Source of the DNA: a virus
Strand: one strand, 5' to 3'
IMG/VR virus record: IMGVR_UViG_3300025168_000444
Coordinates: 1 to 29,198 of that record
Length of the DNA stretch: 29,198 nucleotides
The notes under the pieces: model-generated
Told to the model about the DNA's origin: nothing
Database searches by the model: none
The model's input: only the letters and a program-made list of their open reading frames with translations
In this document: positions 4,000 through 25,983 of the stretch, in pieces
How positions within the stretch are numbered: position 1 is the stretch's first letter
Layout of the letters: each line of letters opens with the position of its first letter
Translations under genes and position numbers: made by a program

Positions 4000-4878
4000 T
4001 TACTTCATCGTCTTTAATTTCATTCCGTATTCATTAACCCCTTGTTTTGCAACGTAATCGTCTTTCAGTATTAAACGATTTTGTTTCTTGAATTTATTGT
4101 AGTTCACATGATGGTGAGGTCTACCATATCTCCATACCATTTTACTTACATCTGGGTGCAATCTCATTTGCATTGCAGACTTTGGGGCTGTCCCCTCTTT
4201 GGCATAAAATTCTTCAGTATTACCGCCCTTAACAGTTTGGGTATTAGCCTTCTCCTGTAAGAAAGCATTGAACTGAATAGTGCAGTATTTTGCTTTAAGC
4301 ATTTGAAGAGACAGGTCTGTATCTTCGTTATATCTACCTCTCCATCTGAAAGGCACATCATTACGGATTAGATTGCATGAGTAAATTCTGGTATTAACTG
4401 TGAATGGTCCATAATCTTTTGCCCACTTATCTACCACGAAGAACATATAATTTGGACCTGCCATAGCAACATTCTTATAGCGCAAGACAAAATCTTCCAT
4501 CGCCTTGAATGGTGTCCCGTCATAACACTTAATGCGCTTATTATCTCTCCATCTGCGAAACGATTTGATATTATCGTCCATTACCCAATGCCAAGCATGA
4601 CCTTCTGAGATTGAATGTTCCCAAATAAAGTTTCGGGCGGCTCCGGGTCCCTTGCTACGAGTTGCGCCAAGGTCATCACAGGTATCGTATTCATCTTGAA
4701 ATTTTTTATCTAAAACCAAGAGGCTTTCTTTTGGGACATATTCTAAATATTCTTTGTATTCCTGTTCTTCTATCACAAGGCGATATGGCACTTTCATTGA
4801 ATCCAGTGCCTTCGCAGTCAATCTACTATCTGCCCTTCCCTTTGATGGGATATATAAGGAAAATTGTGGATTATTCAC
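4000..4878 (-). CDS. TET-associated-type glycosyltransferase (TAGT/GREB1-like), probable DNA-base modifier
   Basis: A 292-residue protein with a GT-A-like N-terminus (SLYIPSKGRADSRLTAKALD, then VPYRLVIEEQEYKEYL), GPGAARNFIWEH at 77-88, a metal-binding-like HWVMDDNI at 97-104 and GRYNEDTDLSLQML at 181-194. This order matches the TET/JBP-associated glycosyltransferases known from phages, which add sugars to oxidised pyrimidines in phage DNA and are related to animal GREB1. It overlaps the ParB-like gene upstream by 8 bases, and ParB-like genes are recurrent neighbours of this family. No TET/JBP dioxygenase is visible here, so the acceptor is uncertain: a modified base made elsewhere in the genome, or a protein. 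Family call fairly sure, substrate not. Confidence 0.8.
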   Translation of the reverse strand: MNNPQFSLYIPSKGRADSRLTAKALDSMKVPYRLVIEEQEYKEYLEYVPKESLLVLDKKFQDEYDTCDDLGATRSKGPGAARNFIWEHSISEGHAWHWVMDDNIKSFRRWRDNKRIKCYDGTPFKAMEDFVLRYKNVAMAGPNYMFFVVDKWAKDYGPFTVNTRIYSCNLIRNDVPFRWRGRYNEDTDLSLQMLKAKYCTIQFNAFLQEKANTQTVKGGNTEEFYAKEGTAPKSAMQMRLHPDVSKMVWRYGRPHHHVNYNKFKKQNRLILKDDYVAKQGVNEYGMKLKTMK

Positions 4879-5518
4879 TTGTGTATCCCTTATCTTTTAA
4901 TACATCATTTATTCTCACAGGATGCCACATAGAGGTTACTGGAACACCATTGCGCTTTTCTTGTTCACTGTCTTTGATGTCTTGGCCTATTCTTTGAGAC
5001 AAGTCCGCCAAATCATCTGCGTTTCGCACATGAACAACTACTGTCCTGTAAGGCTTAAGGTCTTGATGGTCGAATGATGGCATATCATTCCAATGCTCAT
5101 CAGGCTTGAACCAATCGGCTTTTACATCATCAATAGATAAAAGGCTGTCAAGCTCTGCATCTTCAAATCCCAATTTACTTAAATCAAAATCACCATTTAT
5201 CAAATCGTTTAATTCTTCTGTGAGGAACTTATATTCCCAATCGGTATCTTGATTGAGCCTATTATCGGCTATTCTATATGCTGTAGCTTTCTTTTCGTCT
5301 AAATCAGCCACAACAACAGGCACTTCTTTCAGACCAAGCATTTTAGATGCCGCATATCTCGTATGACCCACAACAATCACCAGATTTTTATCTACAACAA
5401 TAGGCTGTTGAAACCCATATTCTTTTATAGACGCCGCCACCTTGTCAGCATTTGGGTTTTTTCTGGGATTTTTTTGGTATGGTACAAGCTTATCTAGCTC
5501 AATGGTCTCTACATTCAT
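4871..5518 (-). CDS. ParB-like nuclease-domain protein
   Basis: A 215-residue protein. The N-terminal ParB/Srx fold is visible: IELDKLVPYQKNPRKN, then IKEYGFQQPIVVD, and the catalytic-type GHTRYAASKMLGLKEVPVVV at 51-70. YRIADNRLNQDTDW follows. The C-terminal third (YRTVVVHVRNADDLADLSQ and VPVTSMWHPVR) is a domain I recall in phage ParB/methyltransferase-associated proteins. Such proteins sit with DNA-modification genes and may act as nucleotide-dependent DNA clamps or nicking/modification enzymes. I chose ATG 5518, preceded by AAGGG, over an upstream GTG at 5554 that lacks a ribosome-binding site. The next gene is the glycosyltransferase, coupled by an 8-base overlap. The leader contains a full intrinsic terminator, so expression may depend on read-through or another promoter. 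Confidence 0.85.
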   Translation of the reverse strand: MNVETIELDKLVPYQKNPRKNPNADKVAASIKEYGFQQPIVVDKNLVIVVGHTRYAASKMLGLKEVPVVVADLDEKKATAYRIADNRLNQDTDWEYKFLTEELNDLINGDFDLSKLGFEDAELDSLLSIDDVKADWFKPDEHWNDMPSFDHQDLKPYRTVVVHVRNADDLADLSQRIGQDIKDSEQEKRNGVPVTSMWHPVRINDVLKDKGYTSE

Positions 5519-5579
5519 ATGAACAGCCCTTTTTAATTCCCCATAATGGGACACTTAAAGCACTATACGATAAAAACAA

Positions 5580-21765: not shown

Positions 21766-22391
21766 CACAAAGCCTCTGTGCATGAAAATGTTATACCAAA
21801 CTTTGAAACCTCATCTGTATCCCAACCCAAATCTGCGGTATCCATTCTAAACACACCAACCGCGCTAGTATAATCGACCGCCGCGCCATCACTTGCCGCA
21901 ACCTTGATAGGCGGTTCAATATTTACAGTTGCCACGCCATCACCGTTTGAATTGGCGTTATCAACAATCATGTATAGCTTTGCCGCCGCTGCACTACCAA
22001 TCTGAATGTAATCACCAGCTTTGAAAACATTCGTCATATTCGCGTTATTTGTATCAATGCCTATAGTGAAATCGCCAATAGCAACCGCACCCTCTAATGT
22101 CGCGCTTGTGGTCACGCCGCCCTGTGGGGCTTTAGCGTCTGGGTCAAAAAGCAAGAACGTGCCAACCCTGCCATGCAGCTTCATCATGAACGCTTCCCAA
22201 TTAGCCGCATCAGCCCTTAACATAGGCGGCAGAGTTAGCGTGGCTGTCCACAGAGCATAGCCATAGTCATATACTTGTTGCTGACCTGTAAATGGCGATT
22301 CAGATACCGCTGTAACACGTTTGAGTGACCAACGAGCCTTTTGAAAGGCTGGGGCTGATGGAAGTGTTAATGGATAAGATGGTGCGCCCAT
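21765..22391 (-). CDS. Minor tail / distal tail protein
   Basis: A 208-residue protein: YPLTLPSAPAFQKARWSLKR, ALWTATLTLPPMLRADAANW, EAFMMKLHGRVGTFLLFDPD form the beta-rich N-terminal core I recall from alphaproteobacterial phage distal-tail proteins. A long serine/alanine/aspartate beta region follows. It lies between the tape measure and lysis genes, where the tail-tip gene is expected. No hub or fibre gene with adsorption domains follows in the window, so the tail tip here may be unusually simple or its parts lie elsewhere. Confidence 0.7.
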   Translation of the reverse strand: MGAPSYPLTLPSAPAFQKARWSLKRVTAVSESPFTGQQQVYDYGYALWTATLTLPPMLRADAANWEAFMMKLHGRVGTFLLFDPDAKAPQGGVTTSATLEGAVAIGDFTIGIDTNNANMTNVFKAGDYIQIGSAAAAKLYMIVDNANSNGDGVATVNIEPPIKVAASDGAAVDYTSAVGVFRMDTADLGWDTDEVSKFGITFSCTEAL

Positions 22392-24808
22392 TATGCAAAT
22401 GCCTTGCTAATTGAGTTGCCTCTGCGTTTTCCATCAATCATTGCCTGTATGGTTTCAGATTTAATCCTTGGCATCATGGACATAACTTCAGCGCGAACTG
22501 TTTGAGCAACCCCTGTTTCAATATTAATGTTTTGGTTAACAACCACTGGCGAACCGCCACCCATCATGTTTTTGGTATCATGATTGTTGCGAACAACCCC
22601 TGCGGTATGAGGCACAAATAATTCTGGTCCGCGTTCACCTACAAGAGTAGGCATTGCCATTCCACCGCCAGCCCTGCCGTATCTGCTTATAGCACCGCCG
22701 CCAGCATGGGATAATGTTGAGTTTGCTTGCGATGCGTTACCAGAGCCGCCAAAGCTACTGACTGACCCACCACCAGCCGCGCCAAATATTGAACCCATTA
22801 AAAATTTGATAATTTGAGCCTTGATTGCATCAGCTATCATCTGTTTTATTATTTGCTTAAATACATCCCCAAGAGAAGACATTGAAAGTTTACCACTCAC
22901 AAATGCTTCAGCAAGAGCGTTTGATATTCCATCAGCGACTTTCTCAACACCTTTTTGAACCTGTATAAATGTCGGGTCTAATTCCATCATAGATTTGTTT
23001 ACTGATTCTACTCCAGCATTGAATTGCTCTTGATTAATCTGATTTGCTGCGTAAGCATCACCAAGATTAGCCATTGTTTCATTCAATCTCTCTTCTTCAG
23101 TTTTCAAGCTCTCAACAAATGACGTACCTTTTGAAACAGAATTATTAAACTTGTCTTCTGCCTTTTTCTGGGCGTCTGTAACTTGTATTGATTTTTGCTT
23201 TGCTTCAATTAATTCCCTAAGTTTTTCTTTGTATTCTGGAGCAACATTCTCACCTAATTGCATCATGATTGTTTGATATTCCAACTCAGAAGCTGAAAGG
23301 TTTTCATTTTCTAAATCAAGTAACTTTGATTCTGATGTGAGAGCGGAAATTGTATCTTTGACCTTTTTGAGTTCACCATCTCTTAACGCTTGAGCAGTCG
23401 CGGCATCTTTTGCCGCTTGAGCTTGGTCTTCTAAGGTCTGTTTTAACTCAGCTTCTTCTGTATTAAGATTTAGCAGTGTTTCAAATTGCTCCCTGCTTAT
23501 TCCCTCAAGGCCTTGAGCCGCCGCAGTGGTGGCTATGTATGCGTCAGTGACATTTGCCGCCTCTAATTTTAAAAGCTCCAACGCATTTCTTTGGTCTTTT
23601 AAAGCATCTGTTATCTTTTGTGCGGCCTTCTGCTGTCCTTTAGTTGGTGCATCATCTTTTGAAGCATCTGGCGCGATAATAGAGGCTACACCAAAACTAT
23701 CAGCAACCATCTGTGTGGCTAAATCTTCATTCCTTTGGGCAAGCTCTGCCATTTCTTCGTTGATGCCAGCTATTCTGATTCGTAGAGCTTCAGCCCCAGC
23801 AAATTTTCCATCAACAAAAAACCTTTGCATTGCTGATGCAAAGTCCTTGTTGTTCATTTCTTCATTCAGTCGCGCTTGAGCCGCCACCAATTCAAGCTCT
23901 TTTTCAGCCAGCAACTCAACATTTGACGCCATCTGTTCCATGATAACGCTGGCGGTTTGCGCTTCTTCAATAATGCCAACTGCTTCAAGGAACTCTGTCA
24001 GAGCCTTTGCGCCATCTGTAAGACCCTTCACTGTATCTGCAAGGGCTGGCAATAAAGGCGTTAATACAGAGACAAGCAATTCATCTAATTGTGCTTGGAG
24101 AGCTTTTGAGCGATTGGCAAAACTGTCTGCCGTTCTAGCCGCGTCACCGTGGGCATCTGTTGTGCCAGCTAGAATAAGATTCATTCTGGCCTGAACCTTG
24201 GTGGCATTATCTACGTCAGCGGCGTTTTCCGTAACGCCCATGCGATATAATTCTTGTTGGAGAGTGGCTTCAGTAATGACGATGCCAAATCGCCTTACTG
24301 TCTCATGGTTGCCAACCAGTGCTGACTGAAACGCCGCCATTGTTTGTGTATCAGAGGCGTTGTTAAATGACGCAACATCCACTGCAAGTTTTGTAAGATT
24401 AACAGAGAGTTTAGCGGCTTCGCCTCTGGCAAAACCCATAGGAACGAAAGTATCCTGAATTGAGGATGCCATGCCCTCTAATTCAAATGTGCTTCTTCCT
24501 ACCTCATTCCCAAATGCTTCTAAAGATGACCTGACCTCACCAGCGAATTGACCAAACACCACTGATGACTTTGCTTGCATCTCTTCTACGCCAGAAGCAA
24601 ATTTAACAGCCGCCATTCCAGCTTTAGCAAACTGTTGAATGACAACAGCACCCAAAGCAAGCTTGGCTACATTCGCAATTTTATTAAACCCCTTCGCCGC
24701 ACCTTTTTGGGTGTCATCTACGCGACGGTCAAATTGCTTTAATTTTCGATTTACATCCTTGAGGTCAGCTTCAATTCTGACAAGTAGGGTATCAACAGTT
24801 GTAGCCAT
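22391..24808 (-). CDS. Tail tape measure protein
   Basis: An 805-residue protein. It sets tail length and is ejected ahead of DNA. The N-terminus (VRIEADLKDVNRKLKQFDRR) and the helical FASGVEEMQAKSSVVFGQFA region match siphovirus tape measures. Long alanine-rich coiled coils fill the middle. The C-terminus has a hydrophobic stretch (KAQIIKFLMGSIFGAAGGG), Gly/Ser-rich linkers and the typical end LVGERGPELFVPHTAG. A tape of this length predicts a tail of roughly 120 nm by the usual 0.15 nm per residue rule. Its ATG is joined to the chaperone frame as TAATG. Confidence 0.93.
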   Translation of the reverse strand: MATTVDTLLVRIEADLKDVNRKLKQFDRRVDDTQKGAAKGFNKIANVAKLALGAVVIQQFAKAGMAAVKFASGVEEMQAKSSVVFGQFAGEVRSSLEAFGNEVGRSTFELEGMASSIQDTFVPMGFARGEAAKLSVNLTKLAVDVASFNNASDTQTMAAFQSALVGNHETVRRFGIVITEATLQQELYRMGVTENAADVDNATKVQARMNLILAGTTDAHGDAARTADSFANRSKALQAQLDELLVSVLTPLLPALADTVKGLTDGAKALTEFLEAVGIIEEAQTASVIMEQMASNVELLAEKELELVAAQARLNEEMNNKDFASAMQRFFVDGKFAGAEALRIRIAGINEEMAELAQRNEDLATQMVADSFGVASIIAPDASKDDAPTKGQQKAAQKITDALKDQRNALELLKLEAANVTDAYIATTAAAQGLEGISREQFETLLNLNTEEAELKQTLEDQAQAAKDAATAQALRDGELKKVKDTISALTSESKLLDLENENLSASELEYQTIMMQLGENVAPEYKEKLRELIEAKQKSIQVTDAQKKAEDKFNNSVSKGTSFVESLKTEEERLNETMANLGDAYAANQINQEQFNAGVESVNKSMMELDPTFIQVQKGVEKVADGISNALAEAFVSGKLSMSSLGDVFKQIIKQMIADAIKAQIIKFLMGSIFGAAGGGSVSSFGGSGNASQANSTLSHAGGGAISRYGRAGGGMAMPTLVGERGPELFVPHTAGVVRNNHDTKNMMGGGSPVVVNQNINIETGVAQTVRAEVMSMMPRIKSETIQAMIDGKRRGNSISKAFA

Positions 24809-25032
24809 TAGTCGGGGTACATCTCCATCAAATCTACGAGGTCATTCTTTCTTAGTGGCGGCGGACCACTTGAATGAAACTCAGAAAATCCATTGATAGC
24901 GGCAAAAAACTCTGGCAAGCTCATGTTCCAAAAATCATCAGGACGAATTTGCATTTTACCAAATGCTGTTTCCATCCAATCTTGCCACGGCAGTCCCTCG
25001 CCTACACCAACAGTACCTCCGCCTCCTGTTCG
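24808..25032 (-). CDS. C-terminal part of tail assembly chaperone, made by -1 frameshift (TAC_6-like)
   Basis: This is the -1 frame after the slippery site. It gives 74 residues: a Gly-rich linker (GGGGTVGVGEG), then LPWQDWMETAFGKMQIRPDD, FWNMSLPEFFAAINGF and a proline-flanked end (DLVDLMEMYPD). The pattern matches the second chaperone of gene transfer agents (PF09550-like). The conserved LPW precedes the first ATG (24975), and no ATG, GTG or TTG lies upstream in the frame, so a separate protein would lack part of the domain. Translated as a fusion, the whole product is about 180 residues. It directs tail-tube assembly on the tape measure encoded next (TAATG). Confidence 0.75.
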   Translation of the reverse strand, partial: RTGGGGTVGVGEGLPWQDWMETAFGKMQIRPDDFWNMSLPEFFAAINGFSEFHSSGPPPLRKNDLVDLMEMYPD

Positions 25033-25349
25033 TTTCCCTCATCACCCGCAGATAACACACAGGAAGCAATGTCTCCTATAGACTTTATAGCATCAGACAA
25101 TCCAGCGTCCCACATAACAAGCCCAACTTCTTTTTCTTTTATATCAAGCCCACCGCTTCTTAACGCGGGAGTTAATATCTTAATCATCTCAGTTGATGTT
25201 AAATCACCTTCAGATAAGGACTGCATAATTTTGACAACGCTTCTGCCAACAGCCGTTTCAATTCTTACAATTACATCTAAAGTAATTTTACAATCATACT
25301 TCTTCTTCCCCAGTGTTATCGTCAGTTCTCCGCGCTTTGGATTTGACAT
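25002..25349 (-). CDS. Tail assembly chaperone, short form (TAC_11/GTA gp10-like)
   Basis: A 115-residue protein: PKRGELTITLGKKKYDCKIT, DVIVRIETAVGRSVVKIMQS, ILTPALRSGGLDIKEKEVGL. This is the PF11836-type tail chaperone found in gene transfer agents. It ends at TAG 25002 unless ribosomes slip at 25038-25032, which gives the long form. The start ATG 25349, with AGGAG upstream, overlaps the previous gene by 56 bases in another frame. Confidence 0.85.
   Translation of the reverse strand: MSNPKRGELTITLGKKKYDCKITLDVIVRIETAVGRSVVKIMQSLSEGDLTSTEMIKILTPALRSGGLDIKEKEVGLVMWDAGLSDAIKSIGDIASCVLSAGDEGNEQEAEVLLV
25032..25038 (-). promoter_or_regulatory. Programmed -1 frameshift heptamer GGGAAAC
   Basis: Minus-strand codons are GAG GGA AAC, so the heptamer G-GGA-AAC is exactly in the zero-frame phase needed for tandem slippage to GGG-AAA. 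This is the lambda gpG/gpGT type of signal (GGGAAAG in lambda). It sits nine codons before the zero-frame stop. Confidence 0.75.
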
Positions 25350-25566
25350 CCGCTTTCTCCTTGGCTTCTACCAATAGTTCTTCGCCCCTTTGGGCTACAT
25401 CATGAACGGTTGCGGCGGTATATGTTTGACCACCGCACTTAAACTTCCCATCAACCTTTAATTCTGAGGTGGGTGGGATATTAAAGATGGTGGCATCTTC
25501 ATTAGACATCATGTGTCCGCTAAAGGTCTTGCCACCAACTTCAATTTCTACTTGAACCCAAGTCAT
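25294..25566 (-). CDS. Small tail-region protein
   Basis: A 90-residue protein: VQVEIEVGGKTFSGHMMSNE, NIPPTSELKVDGKFKCGGQT, then a charged C-terminus (EAKEKADVKSKARRTDDN). Beta-rich with Gly-containing turns. Not recognised. It lies between the major tail protein and the chaperone and overlaps the latter by 56 bases. A minor virion or tail assembly role is likely from position only. Confidence 0.75.
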   Translation of the reverse strand: MTWVQVEIEVGGKTFSGHMMSNEDATIFNIPPTSELKVDGKFKCGGQTYTAATVHDVAQRGEELLVEAKEKADVKSKARRTDDNTGEEEV

Positions 25567-25569
25567 TCA

Positions 25570-25983
25570 TTACACCGTAGCGAATGTGATTGCGCCAGAG
25601 CTTTCAAAGCTAAAGCTGTAGGTCACTTCACCATTATACTCACCGCCATATTCTAGGGTTGTAAGCATAAACTTTCCAGTGAACGTGCCAAAATCAGGCA
25701 CAATAAATTGATAGTTTGTTAAGGCTGCTACGTTGAATTTGCCTTTGAGTGTTGCCTCTGAGGCAGAATCAGTAAACACGCCACTACCTGATACACTGAT
25801 AGAGTTCACCCCACCCTGCGCTAAGATAGTTCTAGCATTTGTTGAGTCTTTATTTGTTACGTCAACCATCTCATCATTCATGGTTAAGGATGTTGAACGC
25901 ATACCACCGATTGTTGTGAAAACCTCTGGGCTTGCCGCATTACCGATTTTCATTAACAGGGCTGAACCTTTTTGTGCCGCCAT
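25570..25983 (-). CDS. Major tail tube protein (TP901-1/GTA-like)
   Basis: A 137-residue protein: KGSALLMKIGNAASPEVFTT, IGGMRSTSLTMNDEMVDVTN, KDSTNARTILAQGGVNSISV, then YEFSFESSG-type strands at the end (EVTYSFSFESSGAITFA). The DVTNKDS and ILAQGGVNSISVSGSG features are typical of the TP901-1-family tail tube proteins that stack into the tail. Short and complete. Confidence 0.9.
   Translation of the reverse strand: MAAQKGSALLMKIGNAASPEVFTTIGGMRSTSLTMNDEMVDVTNKDSTNARTILAQGGVNSISVSGSGVFTDSASEATLKGKFNVAALTNYQFIVPDFGTFTGKFMLTTLEYGGEYNGEVTYSFSFESSGAITFATV

Follow-up and report, generated by a model that had tools for sequence, protein, structure and literature searches.

Layout of the tail chaperone locus

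In this study, the tail assembly chaperone region was investigated in a window of 29,198 bases, the whole stretch of DNA analysed, from the IMG/VR virus record IMGVR_UViG_3300025168_000444. Domain matches and gene order place a pair of overlapping chaperone frames between the major tail protein gene and the tape measure gene, with one extra small gene intervening after the tail tube gene. The features of the locus, all on the minus strand, are as follows.

25570..25983, minus strand: major tail (tube) protein gene (PF06199, E=2.7e-35; TIGR02126, 1.6e-18)
25294..25566, minus strand: small unassigned gene between the tail tube gene and TAC_11
25002..25349, minus strand: zero-frame gene, TAC_11 tail assembly chaperone (gpG-like), 115 aa (PF11836, E=1e-9; phrog_2115)
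25039..25044, minus strand: TGA TGA in the -1 frame, directly 5' of the heptamer, barring earlier entry into that frame
25032..25038, minus strand: candidate slippery heptamer G_GGA_AAC (GGG AAA after a -1 slip), in phase and conserved
25002..25038, minus strand: frame overlap of 37 nt, the sole stretch permitting a shift; its -1 reading is a Gly-rich linker
24808..25038, minus strand: -1 frame with the linker and the TAC_6 domain (GT-like extension; PF09550, E=7.6e-10)
24973..24975, minus strand: internal ATG of the -1 frame (rival start), not conserved
22391..24808, minus strand: tape measure protein gene (PHROG tape-measure families)

The zero frame comprises 115 codons closed by a TAG stop at 25004-25002, and it matched the Pfam family Phage_TAC_11 with 38.8 bits (gathering cut-off 27.8) as well as the phrog_2115 tail protein family (3.4e-7). 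The initial annotation had described the -1 frame as a Gly-rich linker followed by a TAC_6-like domain reaching 24808, with no start codon before a conserved LPW motif, and this description was confirmed: the frame matched Phage_TAC_6 of Pfam with 39.5 bits (gathering cut-off 23.4), runs to a TAA at 24810-24808 which shares one base with the ATG of the tape measure gene, and contains no ATG, GTG or TTG ahead of LPW, its first ATG being at 24975. It also matched TIGR02216, the RcGTA rcc01693 family, at E=3.1e-6 and 27.3 bits, which is lower than the NCBIfam cut-off of 56.1, suggesting that the TAC_6 domain of the window is a relative of the rcc01693 family that falls short of membership.

The -1 frame is open only from the first base of the heptamer, at 25038. 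Since TGA TGA closes it 5' of this base, a ribosome could enter only within the 37 nt of 25038-25002, where GGGAAAC is the sole in-phase XXXYYYZ heptamer. Its codons in the zero frame are GAG GGA AAC, the exact X_XXY_YYZ phase, near the end of the TAC_11-like frame as the initial annotation had noticed. The heptamer GGGAAAC was counted once in the whole window against 2.8 expected by chance; as it is not rare by chance, the weight falls on its phase, place and conservation, not on its mere presence. The first codon after a slip would be CGA (25032-25030), and the predicted products are an unshifted protein of 115 aa and a fusion of 106 + 74 = 180 aa, with the 74 residues added after the slip.

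The AlphaFold2 model of TAC_11 (mean pLDDT 80) is ordered to residue 101 and disordered over residues 102-115 around the slip site, which in this model forms a loose tail behind the folded TAC_11 domain. The TAC_6 model is modest (mean pLDDT 69), and its first helix spans residues 18-28. No solved structure was matched at E<=0.001 when searched by sequence and by fold, and the fold search of the TAC_11 model against the PDB returned nothing.

The small gene at 25294-25566 overlaps the TAC_11 start by 56 nt in the window, and an overlap of 23-92 nt by the preceding small gene was observed in 29 of 32 relatives, always in an equal relative frame. Elsewhere in the window, a TET-associated glycosyltransferase gene (4000-4878; PF20691, 3.4e-46) is adjoined by a ParB_N-domain gene (4871-5554), a pair that may be related to DNA base modification in this phage.

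Conservation of the probable slip site among viral relatives

DNA-level relatives were not found among phage records, a TAC_11 protein search of the same records gave noise only, and the search of viral contigs with TAC_11 alone gave a single match, a 100% identical contig. It was by using the TAC_6 frame, and then a TAC_6 profile, as query that relatives were recovered, numbering 15 and 65 viral contigs, respectively. The removal of duplicates left 35 distinct viral junctions, the window included.

In-phase GGGAAAC or GGGAAAG was present in 34 of these 35 junctions, a count inflated by the common ancestry of the relatives, which are not independent. Among the relatives the identity to the window drops as low as 27% for TAC_11 and 45% for TAC_6, and in an alignment of 18 DNA sequences GGGAAA is the only invariant run of six columns. 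As to the invariance of GGGAAAC across related phages, a check proposed in the initial annotation, GGGAAA is kept in phase in all junctions except that of L061, and the last base is C or G, the GGGAAAG type including L058, L064 and L074-L086.

Codon statistics were obtained from 33 of the 34 GGGAAA junctions (25 GGGAAAC and 8 GGGAAAG; L087 joined afterwards). The codon preceding the heptamer was GAG, ACG, GCG or TCG in all 33, always with a final G, including the junctions in which it encodes Thr, Ala or Ser instead of Glu. GAG makes up 31% of the Glu codons elsewhere in these TAC_11 frames vs 100% at the site, the corresponding values for GGA among Gly codons being 21% and 100%, and outside the junction 7 of 3598 codons of the same frames carry an in-phase GGGAAAN. 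These patterns indicate that the constraint on the slip site acts on nucleotides.

The one exception, L061, lacks GGGAAAC and retains an in-phase A_AAA_AAG, known as the dnaX site of E. coli (PMC5009743); judging from the sequence, the slip site seems to have changed within the family. In the subgroup L061-L067 (near 2462-2495 in L061-L065), the members L062-L067 carry in-phase GGGAAAC/G and AAAAAAG in tandem. In-phase GGGAAAC was also detected in more distant phages, namely Rhizobium phage RHph_Y3_1, a Desulfofustis phage and MW202777, and annotated relatives (Desulfofustis phage OP947159, Rhizobium phage MN988490 and MW202777) show two unjoined CDS with in-phase GGGAAAC present. Another more distant phage, MW202613.1 (L018), harbors at 1474-1516 an in-phase CCCTTTA together with an annotated start overlapping the TAC_11 stop, and both a slip site and a start are possible there.

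A conserved hairpin or pseudoknot downstream of the heptamer was not found, the consensus fold of 18 junctions reaching -1.4 kcal/mol and the window z=-0.35. Upstream, a G-rich, SD-like stretch showed anti-SD pairing above the gene background (mean z=-1.7), and it was no better than synonymous recodings (mean z=-0.3). Since this stretch does not exceed its recodings and no structure is conserved, no stimulator is established; a stimulatory RNA element is not required in every known case of -1 frameshifting. A strong hairpin, UUUCCC...GGGAAA, is predicted about 35 nt past the heptamer in L025-L038 and L070-L079 and is absent from the window.

Probable programmed frameshifting and its rival explanations

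The locus is very probably a tail chaperone pair of the lambda G/GT type made via a -1 frameshift, and the comparative evidence strongly supports the lambda-like programmed shift put forward in the initial annotation. Most ribosomes would read 25349-25002 through to the TAG and yield the 115-aa TAC_11 protein, and a small share would slip one base back on G_GGA_AAC, with the Gly and Asn tRNAs re-pairing with GGG and AAA, and read on through the Gly-rich linker into the 180-aa fusion ending in TAC_6. By analogy with lambda, the short form would coat the tape measure protein encoded adjacently, and the few long forms would recruit tail tube subunits. The frames, domains, phase, gene order and conservation are as observed above; that slippage occurs, how often, and what the two proteins do is what we infer.

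The heptamer of lambda G/GT is GGGAAAG. The window shares with lambda a pair of overlapping frames located between the genes for tail tube and tape measure, the -1 shift and a GGGAAAN heptamer, and differs in that its heptamer ends in C and its families are TAC_11 and TAC_6. In lambda, gpG and gpGT are made at about 30:1 through -1 slippage, a scheme widespread in long-tailed phages, and for E. coli the review concerned gives G_GGA_AAG, rather than G_GGA_AAC, as a highly shift-prone heptamer (PMC5009743). G_GGA_AAC is nevertheless the published g-t slip site of HCTV-1 (PMC5009743), Caulobacter phage Colossus (PMC3556154) and Burkholderia phage KL1 (PMC3483164), which are like the window in the features compared, namely heptamer, gene position and direction.

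The alternative that survives best, though it is improbable, is that TAC_6 is started separately, at the ATG of 24975 or at a rare codon such as the CTG of LPW, in a manner coupled to the end of TAC_11. This ATG lies 27 nt past the zero-frame stop, TAC_6 is started independently in some gene transfer agent (GTA) clusters, and in L082, L085 and L086 an ATG stands immediately ahead of the conserved Trp, such that a separate start is possible in these three, with the heptamer nonetheless kept. However, several relatives encode Leu, Ile or Val at the position of 24975: L072 has TTG there, and the ATG is also missing from L024, L028, L042, L050, L052, L058, L064 and L082-L086. The ATG that follows is located far within the TAC_6 domain, and most relatives have Phe in place of the Leu of LPW. 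A start at 24975 would also drop LPW/FPW, with which helix 1 and the family model begin: the AlphaFold2 model places the ATG within its first helix, and the TIGR02216 match begins upstream of it, at window residue 15, two residues ahead of PW, so that the domain would not normally be started there. Moreover, separate initiation leaves the in-phase GGGAAA unexplained, even L082-L086 retaining it. The initial annotation had held that homologues starting at the 24975 ATG and lacking a slippery heptamer would speak against the shift, and the relatives examined did not present this combination. An own TAC_6 start was rejected for the window.

Slippage of the RNA polymerase instead of the ribosome, for which a repetitive run would suffice, is very unlikely, as three G and three A are short compared with the runs of about nine A or T that are cited (PMC5009743), and the strict codon phase is accounted for by tRNA re-pairing. 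That the gene has decayed, or that the frame change stems from an error of sequencing or assembly, is the least credible explanation and was rejected: a one-base indel would likewise yield two offset frames, but the identical offset recurs in dozens of independent contigs from many samples, with both frames open and the protein strongly conserved.

Two kinds of junction in gene transfer agents

For comparison, chromosomal TAC_6 loci were sampled from Alphaproteobacteria, the class of Martelella radicis. RcGTA-type GTAs resemble the window in having TAC_11 (g10) and the rcc01693 family in equal order before the tape measure gene, with a -1 relative frame in nearly all loci, and they differ in that some possess an own ATG or GTG for TAC_6 and others, exactly where the TAC_6 domain begins, carry CCCTTTN and not GGGAAAC. 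By itself, the arrangement of the window does not tell phage from GTA.

In class A (27 loci on the tree), an ATG or GTG stands just ahead of the TAC_6 domain, mostly as ATGA or GTGA overlapping the TAC_11 stop. In class B, no start precedes the domain, the TAC_11 frame extends 19-40 nt beyond the domain start, and 16 loci have an in-phase CCCTTTN exactly at the P-F motif of TAC_6 in the -1 reading, with the last base C in 14 of the 16, T in L110 and G in L114. Junctions with CCCTTTN and no start were recorded in L130-L133 and in L098, L101, L110, L111, L113, L114, L119, L126 and L157-L164. The open part of the -1 frame begins only 6-12 nt ahead of the domain in L119, L126, L161 and L164, leaving a slip window of about 25-34 nt. 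A different junction, CCG GGA AAG TAG, with in-phase GGGAAAG-TAG, was found in L115 (= L134). Five loci (L090, L096, L100, L104 and L117) have neither a clear start nor a convincing heptamer, and L105, L108, L109, L118, L125, L127 and L138 are unclassified, the simple pattern having found no TAC_11 upstream.

RcGTA-type genes, e.g. GTA_megatron or GTA_TIM, were detected in L130, L131 and L132 of class B and in L134, and also in the class A clusters L165, L166 and L167. The view that the two families are usually separate genes in GTAs therefore holds for L165, L166 and L167, which are separately started, and not for L130, L131, L132 and L134, where the TAC_6 start codon is absent and an in-phase slippery-type heptamer lies at the junction. 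The two classes cluster on the TAC_11+TAC_6 tree, class B corresponding to four changes, two of them forced by well-supported branches, and close relatives of the CCCTTTN-type GTAs have overlapping ATGA or GTGA starts in its place.

From these sequences, it seems reasonably probable that a group of alphaproteobacterial RcGTA-type elements fuses TAC_11 to TAC_6 via a -1 shift at C_CCU_UUN, often with GGAGG upstream. Against the gene background, the SD-like stretch upstream of CCCTTT scores better (mean z=-1.9), and its advantage over synonymous recodings is weak (mean z=-0.9). The P-F peptide alone already favours CCC TTT codons, and several class B loci have an internal ATG that shares bases with the TAC_11 stop (TGATG or TAATG) and from which a shorter TAC_6 could be started. 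C_CCU_UUC was not found as a proven bacterial slip site in the frameshifting literature examined. A literature search that left most subscription journals outside it gave no reports of tail-chaperone frameshifting in GTAs; it did yield one paper on a GTA frameshift, which deals with a +1 site in a hydrolase (PMC10299305).

The case of the window adds a member to a well-known phage frameshift scheme, makes available a chaperone family with a nearly invariant slip site, and corrects the annotation of the TAC_11/TAC_6 pair, which related phage records give as two unconnected genes. Among the GTAs, some seem to have frameshifted chaperones and others separately started ones. If this is true, GTAs would keep, swap and lose a programmed frameshift, and the split would offer a natural series on the purpose of the fusion and its ratio, in tails which are now under the control of the host.
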